A DNA stretch of 64,000 nt from Bacteroidota bacterium (GTDB lineage Bacteria; Bacteroidota; Bacteroidia; NS11-12g; UBA955), in contig JAEUUL010000009.1 in the NCBI GenBank assembly GCA_016787485.1, positions 91,916-155,915 of the forward strand, read 5' to 3'. Of the stretch, positions 16,040-44,292 are shown piece by piece. The notes under the pieces are model-generated. The model had not been told where the DNA came from. It was given only the letters and a program-made list of their open reading frames with translations, and did no database searches. The position numbers and the translations under genes are program-made. Each line of letters begins with the position of its first letter. The stretch's first letter is position 1.

Positions 16040-16423
16040 ATGGCCAAGAATCTCAATTTGGATGGTACCTTTAAAGATGGCAAAAACACCATCCAATTAA
16101 AAATACCTGTTTGGTTATTCGAAGATGATGGAACTTGGGTAGCATATTGCCCTTTATTAGATTTAAGTGGTTACGCCAATGATGAACTGGCCGCAATGGA
16201 ATCCTTCAAAGTTGTTTTGGGTGAATTTCTATCCTATACAGTACATAAGAAAACCCTGGAAAAAGTATTAAATGATTTAGGTTGGACAAAACTTAAAAAG
16301 TCAAAAATTATTGCTCCGTCAATTTATGATATACTTTCAAAGAATGAGAATGCCCGTGAAATAGCGGAAAACTATCCATTTACTCAATCTTTTGAAGATA
16401 TTAGAATTCCAGAATTCGCATAA
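16040..16423 (+). CDS. hicB: HicB family antitoxin
   Basis: A 127-residue antitoxin of a type II HicAB module. The N-terminal half carries the partial-RNase-H-like HicB fold, with IPVWLFEDDGTWVAYCPLLDLSGYA. The C-terminal part (about 85-127) would be the DNA-binding or HicA-contacting tail. It overlaps hicA by one base (TAATG), so antitoxin and toxin are translationally coupled with the antitoxin first. The gene is AT-rich compared with the chromosome around it, consistent with horizontal gain. Confidence 0.82.
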   Translation: MAKNLNLDGTFKDGKNTIQLKIPVWLFEDDGTWVAYCPLLDLSGYANDELAAMESFKVVLGEFLSYTVHKKTLEKVLNDLGWTKLKKSKIIAPSIYDILSKNENAREIAENYPFTQSFEDIRIPEFA

Positions 16424-16641
16424 TGGTTAAACGAATTTCTAATATATCCTTAGCAGATATTCGAAATTTGTTAAAAAAGCACAATTGTAAATTGATTAGA
16501 ACAAGAGGCGGCCATGAAACTTGGACCAGGGCAGATTTATTGCGGCCAATCATCATTCAGACACATGTTGATCCAGTACCAAAGCATATAGTAAAACAAA
16601 TTCTCAGGCATTTGAGTTTAGATATAAGTGCACTGGGATAA
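16423..16641 (+). CDS. hicA: HicA family mRNA interferase toxin
   Basis: A 72-residue dsRBD-fold toxin that cleaves mRNA when not bound by HicB. The catalytic histidine lies in TRGGHETW (H31). The C-terminal IQTHVDPVPKHIVKQILRHL segment matches HicA's conserved helix. Length is typical. It is downstream of hicB with a 1-base overlap. Confidence 0.9.
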   Translation: MVKRISNISLADIRNLLKKHNCKLIRTRGGHETWTRADLLRPIIIQTHVDPVPKHIVKQILRHLSLDISALG

Positions 16642-16648
16642 GCATCTC

Positions 16649-17701
16649 TCAATAGTAGTTCACAGTAGCCTGGAGCTGAGCTGTAAACTTGTACAAATCG
16701 TCTAATGAAGTCAATTCTGATCTAATTTCCTTCTTTTCCTTATCAAACGTACCAATAAACTTTCTGTTTCCATCGAGATATACTCTGCAAATAGGCTTCC
16801 TATTATTATCATCAAAGAACACTGCAAAATATGACTGTGCATCTCTCCAGGTTATTCTACTACTGTCAACTACTGCTCTCATAATTGCTTTGATGATATA
16901 GAATGCCTCCATTTCCTCAACAGTTGTATCGACTTTGCCTTTACTTTCAGATGATACTATTGGTGTATTCTCCTTCTGCTCCTGTTCTTGTTCCCTATTC
17001 AATGCTGCTTTCAATCTATCACTTACGGAGTCAGTGATTATTTGTTGAGCTGTTCTTTGTACTAACGGACGAAATTGCTCCATCAATTTGGACGTAAGCC
17101 TGCCATTATAAATTTGCTTTGTAAAGTATTGAACTAATTCATCTGATGGATTAGACAGTTCACCTGCAATGACCGTGCGTAACTGGTTCATATACTTCAT
17201 TTCATTAGCACTATTCAATATTCCATCTAAATTGAAATGAGCCTTATGAAACTCCTTTAGTTTTTCAATCTGAATATCCTTAATTGTATCTATAGTAAAT
17301 TCAAAAAATGGCTTCTCGTCCATTTTATTGACTTGCTCCAAGTCAGTATAGAATCTGTATTGAATTCCATTCGTCAAAATTCCAAATTTCGCCTTAGATA
17401 CGTGAAAATATCTTAAAAGTTGGCCATCGTGTAAATCCAAATTCTTACTCCAGTGTTTACACTCAACCAATATTATTGGTTGTCCATCTTTAAAAATAGC
17501 ATAATCTATCTTTTCACCTTTTTTCGTTCCAATGTCTGTAATATACTCAGGGACAACTTCAAGAGGATTGAACACGTCATAACCCAATGACTGAAGAAAC
17601 GGCATAATAAACGCATTTTTTGTAGCCTCTTCGGTCAATATACTATCTTTTAATTTGTGCACTCTATCACCAAGAGTACGAACAACATCTTTGAATTCCA
17701 T
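16649..17701 (-). CDS. Predicted restriction endonuclease, HsdR-N type (COG4748-like)
   Basis: A 350-residue solitary nuclease-like protein. The N-terminal half matches the type I restriction HsdR N-terminal domain: E25 in LTEEATKN, then KIDYAIFKDGQPIILVECKHW, which supplies the PD-(D/E)xK residues D, E and K. The C-terminal third is a small domain with SYFAVFFDDNNRKPICRVYL, seen in predicted type IV enzymes. No methylase or specificity subunit is adjacent. It converges on hicA with 7 bp between them. The gene is AT-rich and probably acquired. A role in phage or plasmid defence is inference from family and neighbours. Confidence 0.8.
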   Translation of the reverse strand: MEFKDVVRTLGDRVHKLKDSILTEEATKNAFIMPFLQSLGYDVFNPLEVVPEYITDIGTKKGEKIDYAIFKDGQPIILVECKHWSKNLDLHDGQLLRYFHVSKAKFGILTNGIQYRFYTDLEQVNKMDEKPFFEFTIDTIKDIQIEKLKEFHKAHFNLDGILNSANEMKYMNQLRTVIAGELSNPSDELVQYFTKQIYNGRLTSKLMEQFRPLVQRTAQQIITDSVSDRLKAALNREQEQEQKENTPIVSSESKGKVDTTVEEMEAFYIIKAIMRAVVDSSRITWRDAQSYFAVFFDDNNRKPICRVYLDGNRKFIGTFDKEKKEIRSELTSLDDLYKFTAQLQATVNYY

Positions 17702-18055
17702 TTCAATACAATTTTAGCAAATGTATTAAAAACAAAACAAAAAGGCCAAATATTGGATTTTTATAAAAGAGAAACAACGTCAAAACCTATGACTGGATTC
17801 TTGCTCAAATAGCAAATGCATCAACCCTAACCAATTAAGTTGAAAGCAACCTTCTTAGGCTGATAATCGGGGATCCGGCCTCAGGGAATAAAGGCTGATA
17901 AGAGCAGCAAGCCGGCGCGAAATTTCAAGGAAGCTCCGAGGAATCGAGGAGATCACCGCAGAAATTCGACGGGTTGCAATCGTTCAGACTTTAGAACCTG
18001 AAGCCTTGACCTTTTGCTCCACTTTTGGGTCAAGCCAAAAGTGGAAAAAGCAAAA
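17702..18055. repeat. Non-coding stretch with a dispersed-repeat-like element
   Basis: No gene is supported. From about 17870 the sequence becomes GC-richer, and it ends in a perfect 10-bp inverted repeat CCACTTTTGG (18019-18028)/CCAAAAGTGG (18035-18044). Its ttttgggtcaagccaaaa core resembles short interspersed repeats I remember from several Bacteroidota genomes. Only one copy is in this window, so repeat status is inference. Confidence 0.4.
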
Positions 18056-18080
18056 AAAGCCCTGAAATGAGGGCTTTTTT
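18056..18080 (-). terminator. Displaced original ssrA terminator
   Basis: AAAGCCCT (18056-18063) pairs with AGGGCTTT (18070-18077), and both strands have T-runs. On the minus strand it directly follows the 15-bp copy of the ssrA 3' end. It is therefore best read as the chromosomal ssrA terminator pushed away by the inserted element. Confidence 0.65.
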
Positions 18081-18095
18081 GTGGAGCTGGGGGGA
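18081..18095. repeat. Attachment-site direct repeat (distal end)
   Basis: GTGGAGCTGGGGGGA, identical to the complement of the ssrA acceptor and T-arm sequence. On the minus strand it is followed by CA then A-rich sequence and a terminator. This is the remnant of the pre-insertion ssrA end. Confidence 0.8.
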
Positions 18096-18126
18096 CTAAA
18101 TATTTCTTTTTCGGGGTTATCTCAAC

Positions 18127-18232
18127 TTAACTAAACCTAACAGGCTCAATGGTACTATACTTTTGACAGCCATATTTATCATTCGGATATGTACAGATTA
18201 ATTAACTAAACCTGTACCCCTAACAGTACCCC
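18127..18232. repeat. Candidate integrase arm sites at the distal end
   Basis: TTAACTAAACCT occurs twice (18127-18138 and 18202-18213). A bipartite repeat CTGTACCCC...AGTACCCC spans 18212-18232 and matches, in the same orientation, the one at 23656-23676. Such short repeats flanking an integrase-bearing element are typical arm-type recombinase sites. The rest of 18096-18433 shows no supported gene. Confidence 0.45.
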
Positions 18233-18433
18233 CTTCAAAACAATTTTTCCCCGGGTGTGTGCGCGCCAGTCCGGCGGTTTAAAGAACCCTGCAGACGGCA
18301 AAACACATCCCCTACCCGGGTCAAATGAAGGGGATAGCAACTTTTTGCTGGAATATTACACGAAACACAGCCAAACGGTGAATTCCGGTCGCTGCAGCTG
18401 TATGGCCAGGCCTATGGGGGTTAAAAGGTTCCC

Positions 18434-18748
18434 CTATTGTTTCAGGCGGGGTTTTAACATCTCTGCCAGCCTGCCGGGCAGGTTAGTTTCCAGGGGCGCA
18501 GCCCGTTTGATTTGAATTTGCAGCGCCGGTTCCTGTTCAGATTCAAATTTCTGCAGGGGTTTGGGCAGAACGTAAGGAATCAGGCGGATAACAATATTCA
18601 GCCGTTCGGCGGGTGACATGGTGGAAAGGGTATCCTGCAGGCTGTCCAGTTCTGCACAGACAACGGCGGACAGCATTTCACGCACCTCGGCGGTGGTTTT
18701 GTTAGGGGTTCCGGCCTTTCGGCCCCCTGTTTTTAAACGACTAGACAT
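18434..18748 (-). CDS. Small element-encoded protein with GGRKAGTPNK-type N-terminus
   Basis: A 104-residue basic protein. Its N-terminal GGRKAGTPNKTTAEVREML resembles the start of phage terminase small-subunit-like and DUF5681-like proteins, a DNA-associated motif. The remainder is helical with no catalytic motif. It is last in the element's minus-strand gene array and GC-richer than the exonuclease upstream of it. Function is unknown; DNA binding is a guess from the N-terminus. Confidence 0.6.
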   Translation of the reverse strand: MSSRLKTGGRKAGTPNKTTAEVREMLSAVVCAELDSLQDTLSTMSPAERLNIVIRLIPYVLPKPLQKFESEQEPALQIQIKRAAPLETNLPGRLAEMLKPRLKQ

Positions 18749-18771
18749 ACTCTATTAGTTTCTATAATAGA

Positions 18772-19458
18772 TTATTTGAATAACTTTCGGAAAAACCTGC
18801 TAAAGGCATTTTCATTACTCGATTTGGATGAATCTTCGAATCCTTTGCTCAAACTAGCTAACAAATCATTTCTAATCGAATTACCTATGGTGAACTCTGG
18901 CACCTTCATTTTACTCTTTGACAACTTCAGAATGGTTTTTAATGTGGCCTTACAATCACCAAATGCAGAATGGTCTCCACCCACTAACTTTTGATGTAGG
19001 TAATCTCCATATTTGTCCGACCAAACGCCTTTAAATTTTGAATATTGAATCATAACACACTGTGATTCAAATGCGGGCAGTTCTAAACCCTCGGCGTCAA
19101 AAGTCTGTTTTAACAAACGTAAATCGAACTCGGCATTGTAAATCAAGACAATCTTATCTTGTAGAACCTTTAGAATGTCGTTGTAAATTTCACTCAACGC
19201 CGGTGCATCTGCCAAAGATTCAGCTGTAATCCCATGTATATCATATGCCTCTTTGGGAATATGAATAGAATCTGTAAGTTTTATACGGGTGTTTATAAGT
19301 GGTTTCTTATCTAAATCAATAACTGAAATCTCAATAACACGGTCATCATTCCCTATACCTGTGGTTTCAGTATCAAGAATTACATAGTTATTGGGTGATT
19401 CTAGAACACCTTGCGCCCATTTTATTGCATCATTGCAATCTTGAATGTATTGATTCAT
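18772..19458 (-). CDS. DEDDh 3'-5' exonuclease (DnaQ-like)
   Basis: A 228-residue DnaQ/RNase T-superfamily exonuclease. All catalytic motifs are visible: Exo I DTETTG (D29, E31), Exo II YNAEFD (about 99-104) and Exo III HSAFGDCKAT. The Exo III histidine marks the DEDDh subgroup. The C-terminal 60 residues are Ser/Lys-rich. The gene is strongly AT-rich compared with its element neighbours, suggesting a separately acquired cargo gene. It could act in element replication or as a defence nuclease; the sequence does not decide between them. Confidence 0.88.
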   Translation of the reverse strand: MNQYIQDCNDAIKWAQGVLESPNNYVILDTETTGIGNDDRVIEISVIDLDKKPLINTRIKLTDSIHIPKEAYDIHGITAESLADAPALSEIYNDILKVLQDKIVLIYNAEFDLRLLKQTFDAEGLELPAFESQCVMIQYSKFKGVWSDKYGDYLHQKLVGGDHSAFGDCKATLKTILKLSKSKMKVPEFTIGNSIRNDLLASLSKGFEDSSKSSNENAFSRFFRKLFK

Positions 19459-19467
19459 AAATCAAAT

Positions 19468-20718
19468 TTACAATTTCCCCCAATGAATCCAAACGGGAAA
19501 CAAGGTAGGCCCAGGGTACAAACGTTGTTCCCGCCGTTTCCGGCTGTTCCGTGGGTTGCTGTCCATGTTCCTGCACCTGTGGGCTGATTCCTTCCCAGCT
19601 GTCTTGTCACTACAGAATTTAGAATTCTTTCTTTGGTGTGAAATATCCCGTCCGCAACTTTGGCAGTACCTGTGAACTGTGGATGTAGAACATTCCGTTT
19701 CCTTACTATCTATATAAGTGTAAGAATCAGGAAAGTTGCAAAATACGGGTGTGATGGTTCGGTCTATTACACCCCCGTAAAATTCGGGAAAGTTGCTGTT
19801 TGGTTTTTCATTGAACAGGACATTCCATTTTTCGGCAATCAGAGACTTAATCTGCCCATGATAGTCCGCCGTTTTCTCGCTGTACAGCCTAGCAATCGCC
19901 TCAAATTGTGCGCCAAATAGGTCCGTGTTTCGTTTATACAGGTCTACCCAATAATCAGGATTCATACCATTAATAAAGTTTTCTCTGCTATCCCTTCGTT
20001 TAATGGACCCCGCGTCAATCAAACCCGCTGGACACAATAAAACACGGTCCCAGGTGACTAGTAATTTGGTAAGTAACGGAGCATACCATGCCCCCCCAAC
20101 AATATCCTGCAATGTCCATTTATCGCGGCCTAACAAATACTGCATCCGGTCCACATGAATTTCAAACCGCAGCAAGTATTCCCCTATTTCATTTTGCCTG
20201 CCCTTGTCATACAGTTTAACCCGGTATTGTGAAAATGAATAGGAACGCAGCAACCCCCGGCCATTGAATGTTTTTTGTTCATGGGTTCTGCCTGATAAGG
20301 TTTTGCAACCTTCAATTATAACCGCTGCAGGTAAGGGGGTTAAAATGTTTATTCCAAACTCTACTGAACAAACGGCCCACTGTAAGGGGTGAAAATTAAA
20401 AGTTTGGCAGAATAGGAATATCCATCTCCGCAGGTCGCAGAATGTAAAATCCTGCCAATTTCTCCCATTTCCTGCAGACTTGTGGAAACTACCTTTCACC
20501 TCTATCCGAATCGGTTCAGTGGGGTGGGTCCAGATAAGTATTTTCAGGTCATACCATTGGGCATAATTAAGACAGTATCCGCCCCGTGTTAAAATTACTT
20601 CCCCAGTTCGGTCATTAATACGCTGGACAAAATCAAGTTGTGAAGACTGTAGTAATTTCGGCCCTAATTCTTTTGCAACCTGCGGCGTTACTGGCTCAAT
20701 GTGTATATAGTCAAACAT
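19468..20718 (-). CDS. Rep-like protein with C-terminal zinc finger
   Basis: A 416-residue protein from the ATG at 20718 (MFDYIHIEPV); an ATG at 20745 is also in frame. The N-terminal half has features of a rolling-circle replication initiator: YSFSQYRVKLYDKG and LLRFEIHVDRM resemble strands of that fold in small Bacteroidota elements. A C-terminal zinc ribbon is clear from CQSCGRDISHQRKNSKFC with a following C near HRCRNMDSNPRNS. I infer a replication or mobilisation role. No canonical HUH motif was located with certainty, so the assignment is moderate. Confidence 0.55.
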   Translation of the reverse strand: MFDYIHIEPVTPQVAKELGPKLLQSSQLDFVQRINDRTGEVILTRGGYCLNYAQWYDLKILIWTHPTEPIRIEVKGSFHKSAGNGRNWQDFTFCDLRRWIFLFCQTFNFHPLQWAVCSVEFGINILTPLPAAVIIEGCKTLSGRTHEQKTFNGRGLLRSYSFSQYRVKLYDKGRQNEIGEYLLRFEIHVDRMQYLLGRDKWTLQDIVGGAWYAPLLTKLLVTWDRVLLCPAGLIDAGSIKRRDSRENFINGMNPDYWVDLYKRNTDLFGAQFEAIARLYSEKTADYHGQIKSLIAEKWNVLFNEKPNSNFPEFYGGVIDRTITPVFCNFPDSYTYIDSKETECSTSTVHRYCQSCGRDISHQRKNSKFCSDKTAGKESAHRCRNMDSNPRNSRKRREQRLYPGPTLFPVWIHWGKL

Positions 20719-20782
20719 AACGCAATACTTTATTATCATTGTCATACTGCAGGCAACTGCCCGCGGTGACTAATAAGAACGG

Positions 20783-20808
20783 GTGCAAGTGTTTAGCGGC
20801 TCTTGCAC
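20783..20808. other. Inverted repeat upstream of the Rep-like gene
   Basis: GTGCAAG (20783-20789) and CTTGCAC (20802-20808) lie in the short gap between the 149-aa gene and the Rep-like gene. TTTTG follows on the plus strand. It could be an origin-type hairpin or a transcript-processing structure inside the element operon. Confidence 0.35.
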
Positions 20809-20813
20809 TTTTG

Positions 20814-21263
20814 TTATCCAGCGGTTTCATTCTTCTGAATGTTTGATATGATACCACGAATGATTTTTTCCAATTTGGCCCGGTCCTGGAAATACCAACC
20901 TGTGAAATAGTAAACCATCAGACGACGGTCCCCATCCATCCAGCGGAACAGGCAAAGGGAATTCACCTTTTTACCTTGCCTGAATTCGTAATCATTGCCA
21001 TACTGCCAGTTCTGCCATCCGGTTTCCCTCAGGCCAGTATAGAAACTGTATTTCCCAGCCTTTTTGGGTCCGTGAATGATGGTATATGCCCCATTCTGTT
21101 TGGGTGCATTGGTTTGGGTATATTCCACCTTCAGCCATTCAGGCAAACGGGCAAAATGCACCCGGGCCGGGTCCTTTTCATACCTGCCAGTAATTGTATG
21201 AGTGTAACTGTAGGCCCACACGATAGCAGGCATAGGATAACTAATAAGAACTTTGTTTTCCAT
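20814..21263 (-). CDS. Hypothetical element protein
   Basis: A 149-residue protein rich in aromatics (YHFTGWYFQD-like and GWQNWQYGNDYEF segments), without signal peptide or membrane segment. I do not recognise a family. It lies 2 bp downstream of the HTH gene in the same operon, so it probably belongs to the element's core rather than its cargo. Confidence 0.6.
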   Translation of the reverse strand: MENKVLISYPMPAIVWAYSYTHTITGRYEKDPARVHFARLPEWLKVEYTQTNAPKQNGAYTIIHGPKKAGKYSFYTGLRETGWQNWQYGNDYEFRQGKKVNSLCLFRWMDGDRRLMVYYFTGWYFQDRAKLEKIIRGIISNIQKNETAG

Positions 21264-21265
21264 GT

Positions 21266-21556
21266 TTACCCCCTGTTCTTATATGTTTGCATGGCCTGCA
21301 GCGCGGATTCCACTTCATGCGATTTGTAACGGATACGGCCGGATATTCGATACCCTTTTACGATACCCGTTTTAGTCCAGCTGTGCAGCGTTACAAGGCT
21401 GACTTGCAACCGGGCTGCAGTTTGTTTCCGGGTTAGCCATTCCTGATTTGCCGTCGGCGTATCAGGTTGTTTCAGACCTGCCAGTTCAGAACGAACGGCG
21501 GCGGTTACAATTTCCCGCAGGTCTGCGGGGGTAGTCAGTATTAATTGATTTGTCAT
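21266..21556 (-). CDS. Helix-turn-helix excisionase-like protein
   Basis: A 96-residue protein from the ATG at 21556 (MTNQLILTTP); 21568 is also in frame. The winged-helix HTH_17/MerR-like domain occupies about residues 40-90: WLTRKQTAARLQVSLVTLHS for the helix-turn-helix, then a wing ending in RYKSHEVESAL. This fold is typical of recombination directionality factors and element regulators. Its place in the integrase operon supports an excisionase or regulator role. Confidence 0.75.
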   Translation of the reverse strand: MTNQLILTTPADLREIVTAAVRSELAGLKQPDTPTANQEWLTRKQTAARLQVSLVTLHSWTKTGIVKGYRISGRIRYKSHEVESALQAMQTYKNRG

Positions 21557-21619
21557 AATGGGGAGCAAATTGTCCCCACTTTACAGTCTGTACCTACTTA
21601 CTGTACCGGTACAATTTTA

Positions 21620-22291
21620 CTATTCATGCCCATCTTTTAACATTTGGTTTATTTTGTTTGTGATACTATCAATTCCCAAACTTTCAAAATATGTGCGGAT
21701 ATATTGTAAATCTTCACGTCTGAAATCTTTTGACACTACCTTTCCAACTGGATTAGAAAAAAACTGTTGTGCCTTAGTGGGATTATCACCGGTCAAAAAA
21801 TTGACGAACTTTCCCCATTCTGTTTTATTACTAGTTGCATTTAATTCAGTCAAAATCAAATACAGCGCTAATCTTTGCCTCGGCCTTGTGAATTCTTTGA
21901 TTCTTTCGGTTACAGGTTCCTTTGTTTCCAATGGTTTCAATACTGCATAATCCTGCGGATTAAGTGAATCTACAAATTCAATATATGGGGTCAACACGCC
22001 TTCAAACTCCTTATATTCTGATTCATTCATGATTTGTAAATTATGCAGATTTTTAAGTTCTTTTTTCAATTTGGTGAAAAGATACGGAATTTCCATAGGG
22101 GGAATTTGCCTGACAATTTCTCTGATTTCGCTAATTGTCTCGTTCACTACTTTTTGTGATTCAGTATAGGTATGTATTCTGTGAAAGTTTGGGTCATTCA
22201 CTGAACTTAAAACATATCTCTTTTTAGCCAATATCCGATGCAACAATGTGCCGTAATAATTGATGCTCCGATATTTTAATATATCACTCAT
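21620..22291 (-). CDS. Hypothetical protein coupled to the integrase
   Basis: A 223-residue, mostly helical cytosolic protein. The ATG at 22291 overlaps the integrase stop as ATGA, so it is preferred over an ATG at 22333 that would lie 46 bp inside the integrase. The C-terminal 90 residues (LALYLILTELNA through KFVNFLTG and QQFFSNP) resemble small helical domains in RteC-like Bacteroidota mobile-element proteins. That similarity is from memory and weak. The gene is AT-rich. No catalytic motif is visible. Confidence 0.55.
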   Translation of the reverse strand: MSDILKYRSINYYGTLLHRILAKKRYVLSSVNDPNFHRIHTYTESQKVVNETISEIREIVRQIPPMEIPYLFTKLKKELKNLHNLQIMNESEYKEFEGVLTPYIEFVDSLNPQDYAVLKPLETKEPVTERIKEFTRPRQRLALYLILTELNATSNKTEWGKFVNFLTGDNPTKAQQFFSNPVGKVVSKDFRREDLQYIRTYFESLGIDSITNKINQMLKDGHE

Positions 22292-23604
22292 TTTGCAATC
22301 TTTAATTCGTTTGTATTTCTGTGTATCCACCAATCCCGCATTACTTCTGCAGATTTTTTCGGGGTAATCTTTATATAGTGGTAAAATTGTTTCTCAGTAG
22401 TATGTCCGGTAATGGCCATAATCAAATTCACCGGCATTTCTGTAAGGAACATATTTGATGCAAATGACCGGCGGGCTGTATGGGTTGTGACCAATTGCCA
22501 TTTTTTGTACTTTGTTGTCACTTCAAACCCACCTTTGGTTTTAGAAATGGAATACTCTGCCTGCAGCGAAGGCAACAATTGCGCGATTTCTTTAAGGGCA
22601 TCATTCAATTTCTGATTTGAAATGGCCTTAGGCCATTCAATACTTGAACCATTCCGGTACTTTGAGATAACACGTTCCAATGGTGGCAAAATGGGAATGA
22701 CAACCTTTTTACGGGTTTTTTTTGTCTCAATTTCAATGTATTCACTATCTACTATTGCACGATGCAATTGGGTAAAATCACTGAACCGCAATCCGGTCCA
22801 ACACCCGATTAAAAACAAATCCCGCACCCGGTCCAAACCCGGGCGGCCTGAAAGGTTAAGGGTTTCCAATTCGTACAATTCTGATTCAGTCAGGTATATG
22901 GCGTCTACTTCTTCTTTAGAAACCAAGAATCCCCTTTTCCTAAAGTCCTGATTTGTCTTTATACCCCGTTCATTGGCATCCCCCATAATGTATTTCACAT
23001 TTGAAATGTGTTTTGCCACAGTATTGCCATGATACTTTAGGTCTGCCTGTAGAAACTTCTTAAATGATTCGTAGAAAATCAGGTCTATATTATCCCATCT
23101 CAGGAATTTGCCTTTCTGACTGCTGTATTCTTTTAATACCCGCAAGGTTTGCAGCAGACTGATTCGGAAATGTCGGGAAATGGGTTTTTTTGTTTTGCCA
23201 TTCGTCCGGTGTATGATATTCTCTGCTGTTTCTTTCCAGTAGGTAAACAAATCCTGCTCAGGGGCTGGTTTAACTACTTTAGGCCTGAATTGTTGCTCAA
23301 TGGCATCTTTAATTTCCCAGGGCGTTGGTTCCCGGTCCAGCTCTGCAAATAGTCGCTGCGTAATCTTTTTAGCCTCAACAATGATATTATCCAGGGCGGT
23401 GTTAAACTCAGGGGATTCTTTGAACTGGATTGATTTGATAGTCCTTTGATAGTATTTTGATTTCGGGTCATTGCACCAATCTTTTGGAAATACACTCCGA
23501 CCGGTGTAATACTTTGCCCGGTAATTCTGTGAACTGATTAAAAGGACTACAGCCGTTTTACCGGTAGCCTTTGGGTTTTTCAGGTAAAAATTGAACTCTG
23601 CCAT
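22288..23604 (-). CDS. int: Tyrosine recombinase/integrase
   Basis: A 438-residue site-specific recombinase. It has an arm-binding-like N-terminus (about 1-110), a SAM-like core-binding domain (about 118-215) and a catalytic domain. Active-site residues are R273 in GCWTGLRFSDF, a beta-hairpin Lys near 299, H375 and R378 in HTARRSF, H401 in TGHTTEKQF and nucleophile Y410. It is intact and sits about 130 bp from the ssrA-side attachment site, as expected for the enzyme that inserted the element. It belongs to the Bacteroidetes integrase group of small elements and CTns. Confidence 0.93.
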   Translation of the reverse strand: MAEFNFYLKNPKATGKTAVVLLISSQNYRAKYYTGRSVFPKDWCNDPKSKYYQRTIKSIQFKESPEFNTALDNIIVEAKKITQRLFAELDREPTPWEIKDAIEQQFRPKVVKPAPEQDLFTYWKETAENIIHRTNGKTKKPISRHFRISLLQTLRVLKEYSSQKGKFLRWDNIDLIFYESFKKFLQADLKYHGNTVAKHISNVKYIMGDANERGIKTNQDFRKRGFLVSKEEVDAIYLTESELYELETLNLSGRPGLDRVRDLFLIGCWTGLRFSDFTQLHRAIVDSEYIEIETKKTRKKVVIPILPPLERVISKYRNGSSIEWPKAISNQKLNDALKEIAQLLPSLQAEYSISKTKGGFEVTTKYKKWQLVTTHTARRSFASNMFLTEMPVNLIMAITGHTTEKQFYHYIKITPKKSAEVMRDWWIHRNTNELKIAK

Positions 23605-23655
23605 GGTGACGTTGTTAAGTAGAACAAAACAAAGTTAAGTGAAATAAAGTGAAAT

Positions 23656-23676
23656 CTGTACCCCATACTGTACCCC
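23656..23676. repeat. Candidate integrase arm site at the ssrA end
   Basis: CTGTACCCC followed after three bases by CTGTACCCC. This matches, in the same orientation, the bipartite repeat at 18212-18232 near the other end. It lies upstream of the integrase start codon, so integrase binding here could also regulate its own gene. Confidence 0.45.
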
Positions 23677-23689
23677 AAAGACTAAATAA

Positions 23690-23719
23690 AAAACAAAACC
23701 CTTATCCTGTAAGGGTTTT
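23690..23719 (-). terminator. Element-borne ssrA terminator
   Basis: AAAACCCTTA (23695-23704) pairs perfectly with TAAGGGTTTT (23710-23719) around a 5-nt loop. On the minus strand a T-rich run follows. It lies 12 bp beyond the ssrA 3' end but inside the element, so the element supplies its own terminator to the gene it interrupted. Confidence 0.8.
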
Positions 23720-23730
23720 GTTTAGTTTGG

Positions 23731-24098
23731 TGGTGGAGCTGGGGGGAATCGAACCCCCGTCCAGAGATGCGAGTACTGGCGCTTTCTACATGTTTATACC
23801 TGTTTGTTGTCGGGTGGCGGCAGGTACAGGAAAAACCTTATGTCACCTTATCCGGCGTGTTAATGGCTCACCTGGCCGGTGTGAGTGGCCATACCCGTGT
23901 CGGTCGATTGCTCCTGATCACCCCTGACACAGGCAGGAGGGGTGGGAACAACTGGATCTGTTAATTACTCGAATTAAGCAGCCAGGGCGTAGTTAGATTC
24001 GCCTCTTAAAAGTTTGAACATTGAGATTAAAGAGCCAACATCCAAAGCTCTACATGCTTACACCGTATTCAATCATCCTGTCAAATCCGGTCAACCCC
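23731..24098 (-). ncRNA. ssrA: Transfer-messenger RNA
   Basis: Rescues stalled ribosomes by acting as tRNA-Ala and then as mRNA for a degradation tag. The 368-nt gene begins GGGGTTG (24098-24092). It ends with a T-arm GGGTTCGATTCCCCC, acceptor strand CAGCTCC, discriminator A and CCA (23733-23731); the two acceptor strands pair with two G-U. The tag frame at 24003-23974 encodes GESNYALAA and a TAA, close to other Bacteroidota tags. The 3' acceptor/T-arm sequence is the attachment site of the element downstream. The last two bases of the encoded CCA come from the element. Confidence 0.93.
23733..23747. repeat. Attachment-site direct repeat (ssrA end)
   Basis: The 15-bp copy that forms part of the functional ssrA gene (acceptor strand and T-arm), identical to 18081-18095. 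Recombination anywhere in these 15 bp would excise the element and restore ssrA next to its original terminator. Confidence 0.8.
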
Positions 24099-24175: not shown

Positions 24176-24943
24176 TCAGATGTTCTTGCGCCTGAAGATG
24201 CGCACCGATAGCCACAATGGCAGTAAAACCCACAGGGTGAGCACCACAAAGCCCATAGCGATACCCAGTCCGTTGCCGAAAATTTCCTGAAAAACCGCAC
24301 CGGTATACCCCATCAATGCAGAAATGTCCAGTTTGAGCAGCACCATAATCCGCGCCAGATCTATGGGATTACAGGCGGCCAAACCTATGACTACCTTTTC
24401 AAGGGGGTAATCGTTAAAGGCATAGAGGATGCCAATAAGAATGGCATCGTACAATATAGCCAGATAAAACCACAACAACAGGGACACACCGATTCCGCGT
24501 GCCTTGTCGCGGGTGAGCACACTGGCCAGAAAGGCAAATGCAGTGAAACTGAGGGTAAGCATGATACCTGCAAAAAGCAGAATAACCGAAACTTCTCCGG
24601 GGGCAAAAAGGAGCATCGGGATACCCACCCCAATCACATAAGCCAATACAAGACACAGCCCAATACCCATGTACTGAGCCAGTATAATGGTGCGGCGCTG
24701 CAGCGGCTGCGATACGAGCAATTCCATAAACTCGTAGGCATTGTAAAAATAGGTGGTACTGAAAACAATACTTACCAGGGGCAAAATAATCATGACGATA
24801 CTGAGCAGACTGATAATGGCCTTGGCCGGGTCGGTCTCCAGATTGAACAAGGCCATGGAGGCAATCCCCAGAAATGCAGTATATAAAATCAGCACTTTGC
24901 TGCGCAGGATATCGTAAACCACATATTTTGTAATTTTTAACAT
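24176..24943 (-). CDS. nosY: ABC transporter permease of the nos cluster
   Basis: A 255-residue inner-membrane permease with about six hydrophobic segments (for example SKVLILYTAFLGIASMALF at the start and FVVLTLWVLLPLWLSVRIF at the end). As NosY it would work with NosF and NosD to mature the Cu-Z centre of N2O reductase, probably by moving a sulfur species. It is the last gene of the nos operon, 4 bp after nosF, and ends 77 bp from ssrA. Confidence 0.88.
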   Translation of the reverse strand: MLKITKYVVYDILRSKVLILYTAFLGIASMALFNLETDPAKAIISLLSIVMIILPLVSIVFSTTYFYNAYEFMELLVSQPLQRRTIILAQYMGIGLCLVLAYVIGVGIPMLLFAPGEVSVILLFAGIMLTLSFTAFAFLASVLTRDKARGIGVSLLLWFYLAILYDAILIGILYAFNDYPLEKVVIGLAACNPIDLARIMVLLKLDISALMGYTGAVFQEIFGNGLGIAMGFVVLTLWVLLPLWLSVRIFRRKNI

Positions 24944-24947
24944 GATT

Positions 24948-25649
24948 TTATTTCAATAATGTGGCCAGTGCTTTGCTTATTTTTTCCTCTCCGGTTTCTT
25001 CTTTCAGCGCAGCAATGCTCTTGTAGAAACCCACAGTGCCATTGTGCAGATAAAGAATATCGTCTGCCAGTTCTTCCACTTCACTCATGATATGCGATGT
25101 AATGAGGATGGTGCGACCCGCTTTTTTGCTTTCTGTAATCTTGTCCTTGAGTATTTCACTGGCCACAGGATCCAGGCCAGCTGTGGGTTCATCCAGTATG
25201 AGTATATCCGGACTGAACATAAATGCCAGTGCAGCACTCACCTTCTGCCGTGTTCCTCCACTCAGTGTGCGCATGCTTTTCTTTCCCAATTCACCCAATG
25301 CATATTTATGCACCAATTCCTCATCCAATCCCGGCTGGAAACGACCACGGATGTCCTTCATCATTCCCAGAACCTGATTGATACGCATATTGTCCGGATA
25401 CCTGCCAATCTGAGGCATATAGCCTATGCGGTTGCGATATTCCCACTGATTGCGAATCTCCTGATCATCTATTTTTATGCTACCACTGTCGGGAATGACC
25501 ATGCCCAAAATGCACTTAATGAGGGTGGTTTTTCCACTGCCGTTGTGCCCTATCACAGCGGTTGCCCTGCCGGCGGGTAAGGTGGCGGAAAGATTGCGCA
25601 ATACAGGCAATTTCCCAAAGGTTTTACAAAGTGAATCTATTTCAATCAT
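24948..25649 (-). CDS. nosF: ABC transporter ATPase of the nos cluster
   Basis: A 233-residue nucleotide-binding subunit. Walker A is GHNGSGKTTLIKC (about 34-46), the signature is LSGGTRQKV, Walker B is ILILDEPTAGLD, and the switch histidine follows in ITSHIM. It partners NosY and NosD in Cu-Z centre assembly. The start overlaps nosD by 8 bp and the stop lies 4 bp before nosY. Confidence 0.93.
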   Translation of the reverse strand: MIEIDSLCKTFGKLPVLRNLSATLPAGRATAVIGHNGSGKTTLIKCILGMVIPDSGSIKIDDQEIRNQWEYRNRIGYMPQIGRYPDNMRINQVLGMMKDIRGRFQPGLDEELVHKYALGELGKKSMRTLSGGTRQKVSAALAFMFSPDILILDEPTAGLDPVASEILKDKITESKKAGRTILITSHIMSEVEELADDILYLHNGTVGFYKSIAALKEETGEEKISKALATLLK

Positions 25650-26883
25650 TCAATTCCAATTCTTTCATCCGGGGGGTGACATCAACAATATTTTCAGGTA
25701 TCAGACTGGGCACATTTCTTTCTGAAGTATCGAGTAAATCGATGATAAAACTGCGCAACAGAAAAATCATAAACGGCATTTTTTCCACCATTAAACTATA
25801 CAGGCTTACAGGCCGGTGCGGGACGTCCCCGTTTCGGTCCCGGTTCAGGTCATATCCGTCATATTTCTCCCAGTAATTCTGTTGAAAATAGTTCATATAC
25901 AAAGTTCCATTCGTGGAAATATCAAAAGTATTTGCAATAAAATTATTGCAGGTAAATGTATCCTGCTGGCAACTGGCGAGCAACTTTACGGCCCAGCCAT
26001 TGGAAACAAAACGGTTTGAATCTACCTTAACCCTGCTGGAACCTTCTACATACATGGCCGTGGTATTTTTCTCAAAACGGTTGCCACGGATATGGCTGTC
26101 TTTGATATCTTTCAACAAAATGCCGTAAGCAGAACCACCCCAGTTTTCTGCAAAATCATTATGCAGCATTTGTATTTGTGTACTGTACATGACTGCCACA
26201 CCGGTGCCGTTTTTCACAAACTGATTGTTGTGAAATATATTGCTGTCGCTGAACATAAAATGCAAACCATACCGGTGGTTTTTTTCACTCACATTTTTTT
26301 CGATAAAACCATGGCGTGCAAATTCAAAATATATACCATCGCGGTGACCGGTAATGTGGTTGCCCGTTATCACGGAATTTGCGCACTGCCACAGGTGTAT
26401 TCCGTTTCCGCTGCTGGACTGGTCCGGTGCTTCGCCTTTCAGTTTATTGTTCGTTACATGTACGTTGCGTGCATCACTGAGATAAATGCCAAAAAATGCA
26501 TTGATCAATTGGTTGCCCGAAATAACAATGTTGCTGGCTTTAAATACCCGGATACCGGCATAATCTTTCAGGCTGCCGCGGTTGGTATTTTTAATCACCA
26601 GCCCTTTCACAGTCACATCACTGCAAAGGATGGCTATTCCGTCGTCTTTGCCTTTGGCATCCAGCACTGGCCAGTCTTTCCCTTCGATGGTAAGTGGTTT
26701 TTCTATTTTGAGGTTTATAGCTTCATATGTTCCGGGATAAACCAGAATCCGATCCCCCGGCTTCGCTTTATCAACTGCTGACTGCAGTGTAGAAAAACCC
26801 TTTCCACGCCCCACTTCCAGGTCAGATGCAAAAAGGCAACTCCCATGCAAAAGCAGTGAAAACCAAATAAGAATCCGAATCAT
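25642..26883 (-). CDS. nosD: Periplasmic copper-site maturation protein NosD
   Basis: A 413-residue exported right-handed parallel beta-helix protein (PbH1 repeats). The signal peptide (about 1-19, ending LFAS) is followed by a GKGFSTLQSAVDKAKPGDRI cap and then many NxI/GNxI turns typical of NosD/CASH repeats. The C-terminal segment with a Trp/Tyr-rich stretch (YFQQNYWEKYDGYDLN) and a hydrophobic anchor-like helix is also NosD-like. It overlaps nosL by 4 bp and nosF by 8 bp. Confidence 0.93.
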   Translation of the reverse strand: MIRILIWFSLLLHGSCLFASDLEVGRGKGFSTLQSAVDKAKPGDRILVYPGTYEAINLKIEKPLTIEGKDWPVLDAKGKDDGIAILCSDVTVKGLVIKNTNRGSLKDYAGIRVFKASNIVISGNQLINAFFGIYLSDARNVHVTNNKLKGEAPDQSSSGNGIHLWQCANSVITGNHITGHRDGIYFEFARHGFIEKNVSEKNHRYGLHFMFSDSNIFHNNQFVKNGTGVAVMYSTQIQMLHNDFAENWGGSAYGILLKDIKDSHIRGNRFEKNTTAMYVEGSSRVKVDSNRFVSNGWAVKLLASCQQDTFTCNNFIANTFDISTNGTLYMNYFQQNYWEKYDGYDLNRDRNGDVPHRPVSLYSLMVEKMPFMIFLLRSFIIDLLDTSERNVPSLIPENIVDVTPRMKELELND

Positions 26884-27299
26884 TCAGAAACAAGAAACTG
26901 ATCCCAGGTAAGCACCTCTCCACCCAGTTTTTGTTGGGCAGCAGTCGCTTTGACCTTATCTGCATAGGCGGCCAGATTCCCTCCCATGGGGCTCTTCATT
27001 TTGGGGCTGTGCAGAAAAAAGGCGGTTTTCCCGTCAATCAATGTTCCGGGTTTTTCATAATTTGTTACCAGATATTGGGCACCTGCATTGGCGCTTGCCT
27101 TCAGATAATCGCGCATGCACTCATCGCTGTCAAAGGTGAAAATTTTGCCCTTGGGCGTAATTAACTCAGTGCCAAATTTGTTGTCCATGATGGTCATTTT
27201 GCAAAGGGCGCAGTTGTCTTTTCCGTATCTGATGGGCACGGGACCGGAAGTACAGGCTACCATTACAAGGCAAAGCGGTTTAAGCAAATAGGGTTTCAT
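26880..27299 (-). CDS. nosL: Copper chaperone lipoprotein NosL
   Basis: A 139-residue lipoprotein (lipobox VMVAC, Cys16) that delivers Cu(I) to apo-N2O reductase. The NosL metal-site block is present: C-A-L-C-K-M-T-I-M-D then F-G-T-E, with FDSDECMRDYL further on. Length is in the short range for the family. It overlaps nosD by 4 bp. Confidence 0.92.
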   Translation of the reverse strand: MKPYLLKPLCLVMVACTSGPVPIRYGKDNCALCKMTIMDNKFGTELITPKGKIFTFDSDECMRDYLKASANAGAQYLVTNYEKPGTLIDGKTAFFLHSPKMKSPMGGNLAAYADKVKATAAQQKLGGEVLTWDQFLVSE

Positions 27300-27313
27300 A
27301 TGGGTTTACGAAG

Positions 27314-27913
27314 TTATTGTTTCCTTTTGAAAATGCGTTGAGAAAATCTCTCCATGAAATAGACACCACCAATGAGAAAGCCTCCGCCGATGATAAGCCA
27401 GCCACCCACATCAGGCAGGCTGCCGGCCAGAAAATTGAGCAATTGTTTATACCCCAGAAAAGGAGGCTGATAGCTCATTCCGGGTAATTTTATTGCGGCA
27501 TGAGGATCCAGCTCATGGCCATATTTGTATTCCCAGCGCCAGAAATCGTAACTGGCAACCAGAGCAATTAAAATGAGGCACACCAGGTACCAAAAAAGCA
27601 CTTTCCGGGAATTGCGCCAGGCTACGAAGAGGCCGCCGGCAATCATGCAGCCCAACAGCCAGGGCAGAATCACAAACTCGGGAAATTCATCCGTATGCAG
27701 GGTGGCCATGCCTATATAGTGGTTCAGGTTGTTGATGGAATCCAGGTCGCCTTTCAGGCCATTTACCCAGATTTCCAATCCCAAACCTTCGGGATATTGC
27801 GGGGCCGACAAATCGATATACCACACAGAGGTAAAATAGGCACCAATCATGGCCAGCGAAGACAGGGCTATAATCCAGCGGCTGAAGTTTTTAAGCGGTA
27901 TGCGGGGTTGCAT
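27314..27913 (-). CDS. Nos-cluster integral membrane protein (NosB-like candidate)
   Basis: A 199-residue membrane protein with four or five hydrophobic helices (WIIALSSLAMIGAYF at the N-terminus; VILPWLLGCMIAGGLFV; VLFWYLVCLILIALVAS; WLIIGGGFLIGGVYF). Conserved-looking His and Glu residues (NLNHYIGM, HTDEF) face between helices. It lies directly downstream of nosZ. That is where clade II clusters carry the membrane protein called NosB, proposed to link quinones or cytochromes to NosZ. The NosB assignment rests on position, size and topology. Confidence 0.65.
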   Translation of the reverse strand: MQPRIPLKNFSRWIIALSSLAMIGAYFTSVWYIDLSAPQYPEGLGLEIWVNGLKGDLDSINNLNHYIGMATLHTDEFPEFVILPWLLGCMIAGGLFVAWRNSRKVLFWYLVCLILIALVASYDFWRWEYKYGHELDPHAAIKLPGMSYQPPFLGYKQLLNFLAGSLPDVGGWLIIGGGFLIGGVYFMERFSQRIFKRKQ

Positions 27914-27940
27914 GGGTATTGTGTGTTTTTAAAGTTTTTA

Positions 27941-27971
27941 TAAAAAAGGGGAGGCTCATCACCTCCCCTTT
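27941..27971 (-). terminator. Intrinsic terminator after nosZ
   Basis: On the minus strand AAAGGGGAGG pairs perfectly with CCTCCCCTTT (+ strand positions 27962-27971 and 27945-27954) around a 7-nt loop, followed by TTTTTTA. It lies between nosZ and the maturation genes. It would terminate part of the transcripts and raise nosZ mRNA relative to downstream nos genes. Confidence 0.8.
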
Positions 27972-28001
27972 CACATTTGAATCAGGAAGTCAAGAATTTG
28001 T

Positions 28002-29978
28002 TTATTTGGCCGGTTGTTCGCCGTTGTTGCTTCCTGTTGAGAAGCTCAGAGGCACACTCGAACCAGCGGGTGACACCCGTACATATCCCTGCATTTCCTG
28101 GTGCAAAGCAGAACAGAAGTCGGTGCAATACATGGGGTACACTCCTGCAAATGTGGGTGTCCATTTCAGGGTCTGGGTTTCGCCGGGCATGATTAGCAAT
28201 TCTGCATTTCCTGCACCTTTCACAGCAAAACCGTGAGGTACATCCCAGTCCTGTTCCAGATTGGTAATATGGAAGTACACATTGTCGCCCACACGCACAC
28301 CTTCAATATTATCCGGGGTAAAGTGAGACCGTATTGCGGTTGCGTAAATGTGCACATCGTTGCCGTTGCGAACCACTTTGGTTGCTTTTTCATTTTTGGC
28401 CACATACTGGTGTTTATTATCATCCAGCTTGAAAATTTTCACCTGATTTTTTGTAATCAGATCGGCCTGAATCATCTGCGCATAGTGCGGTTCGCCTATG
28501 GTGGGGAAGTCAAGCAATAATTTCATTTTTTCACCACTGATATCAATCAACTGAGCACTCTGGCACAATTCAGGGCCTGTAGGCAGGTAGCGGTCTTTGG
28601 TGATTTTATTCATAGCCACCAGGTACTTGCCAAATGGCTCTTTGCTGTCGCCCTGCACTACGCACAGGTGACCGATAGAATAGTAGGTGGGAATACGGTC
28701 AACTACCTGACGGGTTTCTACATTCCATTTTACAACTTCAGAACTTACAAAGAAACTGGTGTAGGCAAATCCCTTGCTGTCAAATTCGGTATGCAGAGGG
28801 CCAAGACCGGGTTTTTCCACTTCACCGGCAATCACACTGCTGTATTTGAGCACAGGAATACCGTCAAACTCTCCTTCTACATCGTTCTTGGCAATGGCAT
28901 CCTGCATTTTTTTGAAAGAGAAAACGGGAATAGTGGCAGCCAATTTACCAGAGGCTACAATGTATTCCCCGGTGGGGTTCACATCGCAACCGTGGGGAGA
29001 TTTAGGGCAAGGCATGAAGTAGCAGATCCCTTTGAGTGTTTTGGCGTCCAGGGTCATTACTTCTTTCAGCATTTCGCTGGTAGCAGTATGGGTAGATTCA
29101 TTGTACCTGTTATGCACATAACTGGCAGCCTTTTTCACCCCTTTTCCCTGGGCCAGGTATTCTTCAGCTTTTTTCCAGTTCACGGCCATAATAAAGTCTT
29201 TGTCTTTTTGTGAAGCATTTACTTCCAGCAGGGTATTGGCCTGCTCTGTGTTGTAGCAGCTAAAGAACACCCAGCCATGACTCATGCCTTTACCGGCGCG
29301 TGCAAGGTCAAAGTTTACAGCCGGTGCGTTCACCTGAAAAGCCATAGACATGTTACCACTCTCTTTATCCACTTTTACAAAGTTGACAGTACCCACGAAG
29401 TTCTTCTTATAGGTATTGATGGCTACGTCTTCATTGTCTGAAGGAACACTGAAACGGGTAGCACCTACCACGTATTCGGTATTTTCAGTGCAGAACGGAC
29501 TGGCGTGGTTACCACCGGTATTGGGCAACTCGATGATTTCATCGGTGCGGAATGTTTTCAGGTTGATACGTGCAATACGGGGGGTATTGTTGCCATTGAT
29601 AAACAGCCAGCGGCCATCATCGTTGCCGGCAGTTTTACTCAGCACAGGGTGGTGGGAATCGTCCCAGGGCACAAATCCTTTGGAAGTGTTGAGCATGGGT
29701 TTGGTTTCTTCCGAGTACCCCCAGCCTTTTTCCGGATCCACGCTGAATACGGGGATAACGCGGAACAGACGGCCCGAAGGAACGCCATACACACCTACCT
29801 GACCACTGTATCCACCACTGGTGAACAAGTACACCTCATCGTATTTTCCGGGCGCCACATACACCTTACTCGCGGCATCGCCACTTACCACATTGCCGGC
29901 CTGCTTGGGTTTGCAGGCGGTGAACAGGACTGCTGCAGACAACGCTGCAGGAATCCATTGCATACATTTGGTTTTCAT
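28002..29978 (-). CDS. nosZ: Nitrous-oxide reductase, clade II (atypical)
   Basis: Reduces N2O to N2 at a Cu4S (Cu-Z) site fed from a binuclear CuA site; periplasmic. The 658 residues start with a Sec-type lipoprotein signal (LFTAC, Cys22) instead of a twin-arginine signal, the hallmark of clade II. The beta-propeller carries DDSHHPV (H109, H110), part of the Cu-Z ligand set, and further His-containing blades such as SPHGCDVNPTGEY. The C-terminal cupredoxin domain has the CuA motif CTDFCSALHQEM (C618, C622, H626, M629). It follows the cytochrome c gene by 28 bp. Confidence 0.96.
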   Translation of the reverse strand: MKTKCMQWIPAALSAAVLFTACKPKQAGNVVSGDAASKVYVAPGKYDEVYLFTSGGYSGQVGVYGVPSGRLFRVIPVFSVDPEKGWGYSEETKPMLNTSKGFVPWDDSHHPVLSKTAGNDDGRWLFINGNNTPRIARINLKTFRTDEIIELPNTGGNHASPFCTENTEYVVGATRFSVPSDNEDVAINTYKKNFVGTVNFVKVDKESGNMSMAFQVNAPAVNFDLARAGKGMSHGWVFFSCYNTEQANTLLEVNASQKDKDFIMAVNWKKAEEYLAQGKGVKKAASYVHNRYNESTHTATSEMLKEVMTLDAKTLKGICYFMPCPKSPHGCDVNPTGEYIVASGKLAATIPVFSFKKMQDAIAKNDVEGEFDGIPVLKYSSVIAGEVEKPGLGPLHTEFDSKGFAYTSFFVSSEVVKWNVETRQVVDRIPTYYSIGHLCVVQGDSKEPFGKYLVAMNKITKDRYLPTGPELCQSAQLIDISGEKMKLLLDFPTIGEPHYAQMIQADLITKNQVKIFKLDDNKHQYVAKNEKATKVVRNGNDVHIYATAIRSHFTPDNIEGVRVGDNVYFHITNLEQDWDVPHGFAVKGAGNAELLIMPGETQTLKWTPTFAGVYPMYCTDFCSALHQEMQGYVRVSPAGSSVPLSFSTGSNNGEQPAK

Positions 29979-44120: not shown

Positions 44121-44135
44121 CGGAGGTGAGAATGA

Positions 44136-44215
44136 CCATTTCCCTGCGCAGGCATTATCCTTATCAGGTATTGCGGGTATCATCTCAGCCGGCAAAAGCA
44201 GGCACCCCGAAAGTC
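44136..44215 (-). promoter_or_regulatory. TPP riboswitch (THI element)
   Basis: The minus strand reads TTTCGGGGTGCC, then GGCTGAGATGATACCC, CCTGATAAGGATAATGCC and TGCGCAGGGAA. All conserved THI-box blocks are present: GGGGTGC, CUGAGA, ACCUGAU, GGAUAAUGCC and GCGNAGGGAA. It should repress the downstream receptor when TPP is plentiful. Confidence 0.93.
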
Positions 44216-44292
44216 TGATGCAAAGTAAAGGCAAGAAATGAATGATTTGTTCAAAAACCTGAAATAAAGGCCCTTGACAAATTCAAAACAGA

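Follow-up and report, generated by a model that had tools for sequence, protein, structure and literature searches.

A seven-gene element beside ssrA

In a 64-kb stretch of Bacteroidota DNA (contig JAEUUL010000009.1; all 64,000 nucleotides are referred to here as the window), the region beyond the 3' end of ssrA, the gene for transfer-messenger RNA (tmRNA), has the features of a small integrative element. An earlier note on this DNA, made from the letters alone, had described a 15-bp sequence identical to the tmRNA end at both ends of a seven-gene, one-strand array that starts with an integrase next to ssrA, and both observations held up: the repeat has two copies, above the level of shuffled sequence, and seven minus-strand open reading frames (ORFs) fill the interval between them. 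The element and its ends comprise the following features.

18081..23747, no strand assigned: the integrative element as a whole, its two 15-bp repeats counted in; an exact repeat at each end, seven collinear genes between them, unit length 5652 bp
18081..18095, no strand assigned: distal attachment repeat, 15/15 identity to the ssrA 3' end
23733..23747, no strand assigned: attachment repeat in the ssrA 3' end, within tmRNA 23731-24098
23731..24098, minus strand: ssrA (tmRNA), intact after insertion, tag GESNYALAA (ARAGORN and Rfam RF00023, 125.8 bits)
23691..23723, minus strand: terminator-like hairpin brought by the element beside ssrA, 14-nt perfect inverted repeat; putative terminator
18053..18080, minus strand: terminator-like hairpin beyond the distal repeat, interpreted as the terminator that ssrA had originally, 11-nt perfect inverted repeat
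23652..23676, no strand assigned: putative integrase arm sites, ssrA side, two GTACCCC words; 84% repeat of 18208-18232
18208..18232, no strand assigned: putative integrase arm sites, distal side, two GTACCCC words

The window contains the repeat, GTGGAGCTGGGGGGA, exactly twice, at 18081-18095 and 23733-23747; the copies lie 5,652 bp apart. The repeat is the longest word (15) that the final 100 nt of ssrA have in common with the adjoining 10 kb, and in 300 dinucleotide shuffles of those 10 kb the longest such word was 13, reached in four shuffles. Just inside each end lies a pair of GTACCCC words spaced by 12 bp (18214 and 18226; 23658 and 23670); neither strand carries another from about 17.5 to 24.2 kb, and the whole window has ten, both strands counted. 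These pairs would fit integrase arm sites. Together with the ssrA-side hairpin, they support an element end at both sides. The tmRNA stays intact; beside it the element supplies a terminator-like hairpin of its own, and a hairpin resembling 18053-18080 lies directly 3' of ssrA in one relative (G012).

The seven genes were taken from an ORF list that also holds many overlapping chance ORFs. From the ssrA side, they are:

22288..23604, minus strand: tyrosine recombinase (integrase), 438 aa; PF00589 at 8e-9, PF13102 at 7.6e-8
21620..22291, minus strand: 223-aa protein in the variable slot that follows the integrase, matching no family above the cut-off
21266..21556, minus strand: helix-turn-helix (HTH) protein of the HTH_17 type, excisionase-like; PF12728 at 8.7e-8, best PHROG match an excisionase and transcriptional regulator family at 1.4e-8
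20814..21263, minus strand: 149-aa accessory protein, kept in some sister elements (5 of 19 sister loci have a related ORF)
19468..20718, minus strand: Rep, by predicted fold a Rep_trans-like rolling-circle initiator, with a C-terminal CxxC-C-C zinc-finger-like tail
18772..19458, minus strand: DEDDh 3'-5' exonuclease (DnaQ-like), cargo slot; PF00929 at 3.8e-18
18434..18748, minus strand: 104-aa protein, found repeatedly close to rep in sister elements (clustering places relatives in 6 sister loci)

The integrase residues R273, K296, R378, H401 and Y410 are retained in 12 or 13 of 13 family members. The 223-aa protein has no relative among the element-family proteins compared; the 149-aa protein gives a confident, mostly beta model (pLDDT 85) with no clear fold match in the PDB. 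Scans of the seven proteins against Pfam, PHROGs and further family collections revealed no structural, relaxase or conjugation domains. In line with the earlier note, the element thus has no phage structural or conjugation genes; its further claim that no relaxase is present applies to canonical relaxases only, since the predicted fold of Rep links it to MOBT relaxases. A PHROGs terminase-small-subunit match of the HTH protein (9.5e-4) and a tail-chaperone match of Rep (0.12) were read as chance or cross-hits. The HTH and Rep-like genes that the note had named as the core are borne out by the PF12728 match and by the predicted fold of Rep described below.

Rep has a predicted Rep_trans-type fold

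An earlier assignment of the Rep start is corrected here to 20718, which coincides with the homologues' first Met in the alignment. Rep has no Pfam match better than E 0.32, and its best PHROG match (0.016) is to families of unknown function. A Pfam number is attached to just one of 92 Rep homologues, which are named at source as 'hypothetical protein' or, once, as a Zn-ribbon protein. We aligned the window Rep with 80 of these (81 rows; 12 left out) for modelling and residue counts. The AlphaFold model is confident over the first 300 residues, and in the PDB it matches, at E 0.001 or better, the Rep_trans initiators RepDE and RepSTK1 and nothing else; it is predicted to share their TBP-like catalytic fold. 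Identity to RepSTK1 and pT181-type Reps is 11-12% in the structural alignment. The next PDB family is TBP, whose fold is said to be common to Rep_trans enzymes (PMC13107129; this and the other papers cited here are drawn on in excerpt).

The residues D3, E120, K168-x-Y170-x-K172-x-x-Q175 and R184-x-E186 are near-invariant in the 81 rows. They would supply three metal-binding acids and a YxK tyrosine motif, E replacing D at motif I, and their spacing matches the catalytic spacing of Rep_trans enzymes (PMC4797284, PMC6499999). The D, KxYxK and RxE positions are likewise kept in all of ten distant sister Reps. At the C-terminus, cysteines 352, 355, 369 and 382 are kept in 78-79 of the 81 rows and look like a zinc-finger tail, a feature not mentioned for MOBT relaxases in the excerpts of the literature compared; many sister Reps, at 280-330 aa, are shorter. 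In the model, the catalytic domain opens with a strand at residues 2-9, which leaves no N-terminal HTH of the kind that precedes the Rep_trans domain in MOBT relaxases, although NicK proteins without an HTH are also mentioned (PMC6499999).

An integrase-HTH-Rep core recurs across Bacteroidota

The earlier note had suggested a protein search for sister elements, and this found the integrase-HTH-Rep core elsewhere, in many cases flanked by tRNA or tmRNA repeats. A rep profile matched 29 of 395 genomes of the phylum, own genome included; 23 of these matches span at least 200 profile positions and six cover a short stretch only. The window Rep, used as a single query, matched 9 of 147 relatives (own genome included) and left 138 without a match. 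A pattern scan of named genomes gave 11 loci, all in records with Bacteroidota names, from genera that we take to belong to this phylum.

We examined 42 rep loci, leaving out two duplicates (L019, L134) and two in which no rep ORF was called (L056, L132). On the same strand within 6 kb of rep, an integrase is present in 31 and an HTH gene in 37, counts to be read with the fact that 13-14 of the loci counted served to build the rep, int and hth profiles and match by construction. Both genes are present in 30 loci, and 29 of these keep the order integrase-HTH-Rep; some rep loci without the full core lie at contig ends.

An RNA gene was detected at 23 loci with rep, and at 14 of them, the window included, an exact repeat of the RNA-gene 3' end lies on the far side of rep. 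The genes concerned are tmRNA in three loci (the window, L014 and L115), tRNA-Met in three, tRNA-Leu and tRNA-Arg in two each, and tRNA-Glu, tRNA-Phe, tRNA-Lys and tRNA-Cys in one each, and the repeat-bounded elements are 4.7-11.7 kb long. The weakest sister repeat is the 14-bp one of L129, where no integrase was called. The integrase adjoins the tmRNA in the window and in L055 and lies far from it in L014 and L115, so that element orientation is not fixed.

Three further observations concern the family. For 45 of the 92 Rep homologues the longest contig is 4-8 kb, the element's own size; such contigs may be free circles or collapsed repeats. An integrase, two HTH genes and a family Rep are also present on a 28-kb faecal scaffold listed as an unverified 'Bacteriophage sp.' (MT835707.1; L135, 11362-15011). 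A second integrase of this type in the window's own genome, 34% identical, lies directly after a tRNA-Cys gene (L152, 4631-6119), with no HTH gene or Rep in the 12 kb fetched. Text searches confined to open-licence papers brought up no description of such a Bacteroidota family in titles or the openings of abstracts.

Empty and occupied ssrA sites in relatives

If the element had inserted into ssrA, relatives should carry an uninterrupted gene joined directly to the distal terminator (18053-18080), and the earlier note had proposed a search for such genes. An alignment running from ssrA-like sequence at least 10 bases past this join was found in at least 12 of 146 other genomes, seven of them at full tmRNA genes (G002, G012, G028, G080, G036, G040 and G056); such alignments lend modest support, because terminators are similar hairpins. 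At an eighth place, in G016 (L142, contig C59), sequence like the ssrA 3' end is joined to the terminator with no full tmRNA gene in 1.7 kb, and the G016 ssrA sits on a different contig; L142 may represent an ssrA end that was displaced, perhaps the distal attachment copy belonging to a different ssrA element. The tmRNA status was established for these eight; G062, G117, G139 and G145 are also listed among the 12.

Twenty ssrA regions of relatives were fetched from 45 genomes with ssrA over the cut-off. The rep profile found nothing in them, and an integrase of the window's type occurs in two. In fourteen the sequence continues for 5 kb or more past ssrA; six, with 0.9-3.9 kb, are too short to exclude an element. 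Together with the 138 of 147 relatives that gave no match to the window Rep, these regions indicate that ssrA occurs in relatives without the element. On the 3' side, no more than 250 bp separate at least 12 of the 45 ssrA genes from the end of their contig, a pattern that agrees with an insertion hotspot but may have other causes.

A cargo slot beside rep and the surroundings of the element

The slot beside rep carries cargo: this element has the DEDDh exonuclease there, and several sister loci have genes for restriction or for other kinds of defence. We scanned 20 rep-side proteins from 16 loci with PADLOC, at thresholds of 1e-3 and 1e-10. Defence-type matches were obtained in eight loci, all passing 1e-10, and the other eight gave none at the thresholds applied. 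The rep-side matches are:

L020 and L121: type III restriction-modification (RM)
L116 and L128: type I RM
L123: Eco57I-like methylase
L117: DruF/DruL models, which we take to represent Druantia
L111: PDC-S49
L126: TIR-effector model

Among these loci L020, L111 and L126 are bounded by repeats, and the other five are without established ends. Two loci with no defence match (L053, L112) have genes for secreted proteins, which may lie outside the element. As a control, 10 integrase-side neighbours, from 10 loci, were scanned at 1e-10; no restriction gene was among them, and the two PADLOC matches obtained were to a CARF-fusion model and a homing endonuclease. Because cargo and control proteins were picked by hand as large ORFs and ends are proven for some loci only, the rep-side enrichment is indicated rather than measured. 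The window exonuclease matches defence models at domain level only, and a defence role for it is a guess.

Relatives of this exonuclease and of an HsdR_N-domain protein of the window both lie near ssrA in G088. In the window, the genes for the HsdR_N-domain protein and for a HicA-like toxin, the latter with an upstream partner ORF, lie just outside the element, at 16040-17701, in DNA of low GC content (35-36%). A stretch of about 173 bp abutting the far-side terminator (17875-18048) has a short inverted repeat at one end and three more copies in the same genome, at 85-91% identity. On the other side, next to ssrA, genes at 24176-29978, with a nos propeller repeat, NosD and an ABC transporter, resemble a cluster for nitrous oxide reductase, and a thiamine pyrophosphate (TPP) riboswitch lies at 44124-44219 on the minus strand.

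Proposed life cycle of the element

We think it probable that 18081..23747 is a complete 5,652-bp integrative element with ssrA-end repeats, whose integrase inserts and excises it with the help of the HTH protein and whose Rep nicks and copies the excised circle. Insertion at the ssrA 3' end was likely carried out by the element's own tyrosine integrase. Excision would be performed by the same enzyme, helped by the excisionase-like HTH protein; the excised DNA would circularise, Rep would nick the circle via Tyr170 and initiate its rolling-circle copying, and the circle could then re-integrate at ssrA. The element does not encode all that transfer between cells would need, and the most likely route would be the conjugation system of another element, with Rep as a MOBT-like relaxase. 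Since initiators of this fold serve also as relaxases in Tn916 and ICEBs1 (PMC5704250), Rep could launch transfer through a helper's pore.

Several observations weigh against this reading. Neither an attP junction nor an empty site from the same species was seen. Among the loci with an RNA gene, 9 of 23 gave no exact repeat, one ssrA locus (L055) has the element beside the tmRNA with no repeat, exact or approximate (mismatches allowed), and the shuffle control applies to the window's repeat only. One locus of 30, L124, breaks the core order, and internal stops occur in 4 of 32 rep places listed from the profile search. The peak of 4-8 kb contigs may stem from repeats collapsing in assembly, and a Mantel correlation could reflect shared vertical descent. 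As to Rep, the window protein has no PF02486 match at E up to 1 (the host genome also gave none, with the Bacillus subtilis control found), its residues were matched to Rep_trans enzymes by sequence order and spacing rather than by superposed coordinates, and the motif I acid is kept in nine of the ten distant sister Reps, being missing in L128. Across the family, hairpins upstream of rep are the stronger ones (mean z -2.28, n=23, versus -1.21 for hth, n=32, and -0.78 for int, n=29); the window's own is weak (z -1.1), no origin was identified, and some rep-upstream hairpins may be terminators.

The earlier note had left the element type open between a satellite and a cryptic replicating island. 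Given the predicted Rep_trans-type fold of Rep, the choice now leans towards a rolling-circle integrative element, or a hitchhiker akin to integrative and mobilizable elements (IMEs), and away from a phage satellite. The strongest alternative is an IME in the strict sense, in which Rep would be mainly a MOBT-like relaxase acting at oriT and the strand would leave via a helper conjugation pore. This is quite possible, if short of an even chance: the element has its own integrase and attachment repeats, Rep combines the predicted Rep_trans/MOBT fold with the catalytic positions, and 45 streptococcal IMEs are reported to carry MobT/Rep_Trans proteins, with those of Tn916 and ICEBs1 doing both jobs (PMC5704250). 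Yet the Rep catalytic domain begins at residue 2, without the N-terminal HTH of MOBT relaxases, no coupling protein is found among the seven genes, and no oriT was identified. The host genome gave no TraG-type ATPase match, a weak point since no control genome passed the cut-off either.

We regard as rather unlikely a cryptic integrating plasmid that excises and replicates alone, with no dedicated transfer beyond natural uptake. Its gene content, limited to integration, control, Rep, cargo and unknowns, would suit this; however, the presence of the family in many families of bacteria and at several different RNA genes calls for some transfer route, and two family Reps used as queries had no relative in 72,556 plasmid records.

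Packaging as a satellite by a helper phage, for example a filamentous phage with the same class of initiator, seems improbable. Size, integrase and defence cargo fit satellites, and the top viral fold match of Rep is A0A345MNV4, named as an Inoviridae Rep_trans protein (PMC13107129). Against this, the PHROGs scan of the seven proteins gave integrase, HTH/excisionase and exonuclease families and weak or unknown ones, with no packaging, capsid-redirecting or structural family except the weak cross-hit of the HTH protein; Zot, the inovirus morphogenesis ATPase, has no match in the element or host genome. The viral_contigs set yielded no relative in two pattern-based scans, nor did 50,697 phage records match the window's Rep. 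MT835707.1 was found by its match to one sister Rep and can be read either way on this question. A decayed remnant of a larger prophage or integrative and conjugative element (ICE) is very improbable, for despite internal stops in some family copies all seven ORFs are open here, neither repeat is damaged, and sister elements show the same compact layout.

Relation to known elements and significance

The pT181-family plasmids (RepD, RepDE) and RepSTK1 resemble the element in predicted Rep fold and catalytic spacing, while their Reps are just 11-12% identical to that of the window and the pT181-family plasmids are not known to integrate. The NBU1-type mobilizable units of Bacteroides share the phylum, an integrase followed by an excisionase-like HTH protein, and a tRNA target. 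NBU1 uses a MobP relaxase (PMC5704250), whereas no canonical MobP relaxase was found in the window element, its seven proteins having no relaxase domain. Like the Firmicutes MOBT/Rep_trans IMEs and ICEs (ICEBs1, Tn916, streptococcal IMEs), the element has an integrase, site-specific integration and a Rep_trans-fold initiator expected to replicate the excised circle, and several of those listed in PMC5704250 integrate in the 3' ends of genes; unlike them, it belongs to another phylum, has no coupling protein, and carries a Rep outside PF02486 detection, without the N-terminal HTH and with a C-terminal zinc-finger-like tail. P4-like satellites with defence hotspots (PMC9122126) are also small integrative elements with a variable defence slot, but neither packaging functions nor a link to a helper turned up for the window element. 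The Riemerella 10K genomic island (PMC6764341) is a Bacteroidota tRNA-Arg island of 12 ORFs, whose tyrosine integrase has been likened to intN1 and whose excision has been demonstrated by PCR; its repeat is 53 bp, compared with 15 bp here.

Integrative elements with Rep_trans proteins are thus already known from Firmicutes, and what differs here is the phylum, a Rep branch outside Pfam detection, the Rep domain architecture, and a recurrent core with a rep-side cargo slot. Tentatively, these elements may form a phylum-wide Bacteroidota class of self-copying integrative elements, with an unrecognised Rep_trans branch bearing a zinc-finger tail, in which Rep would both replicate the excised circle and act as relaxase, and the slot would be a moving shelf for antiphage defence systems. 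Scattered islands of 'hypothetical protein' genes at tRNA and tmRNA genes become one recognisable family with a core of integrase, HTH protein and Rep; this core offers an annotation marker and a testable carrier of defence genes in Bacteroidota. If Rep is indeed a relaxase, the MOBT principle of Firmicutes would extend to a second phylum and to a different protein architecture.

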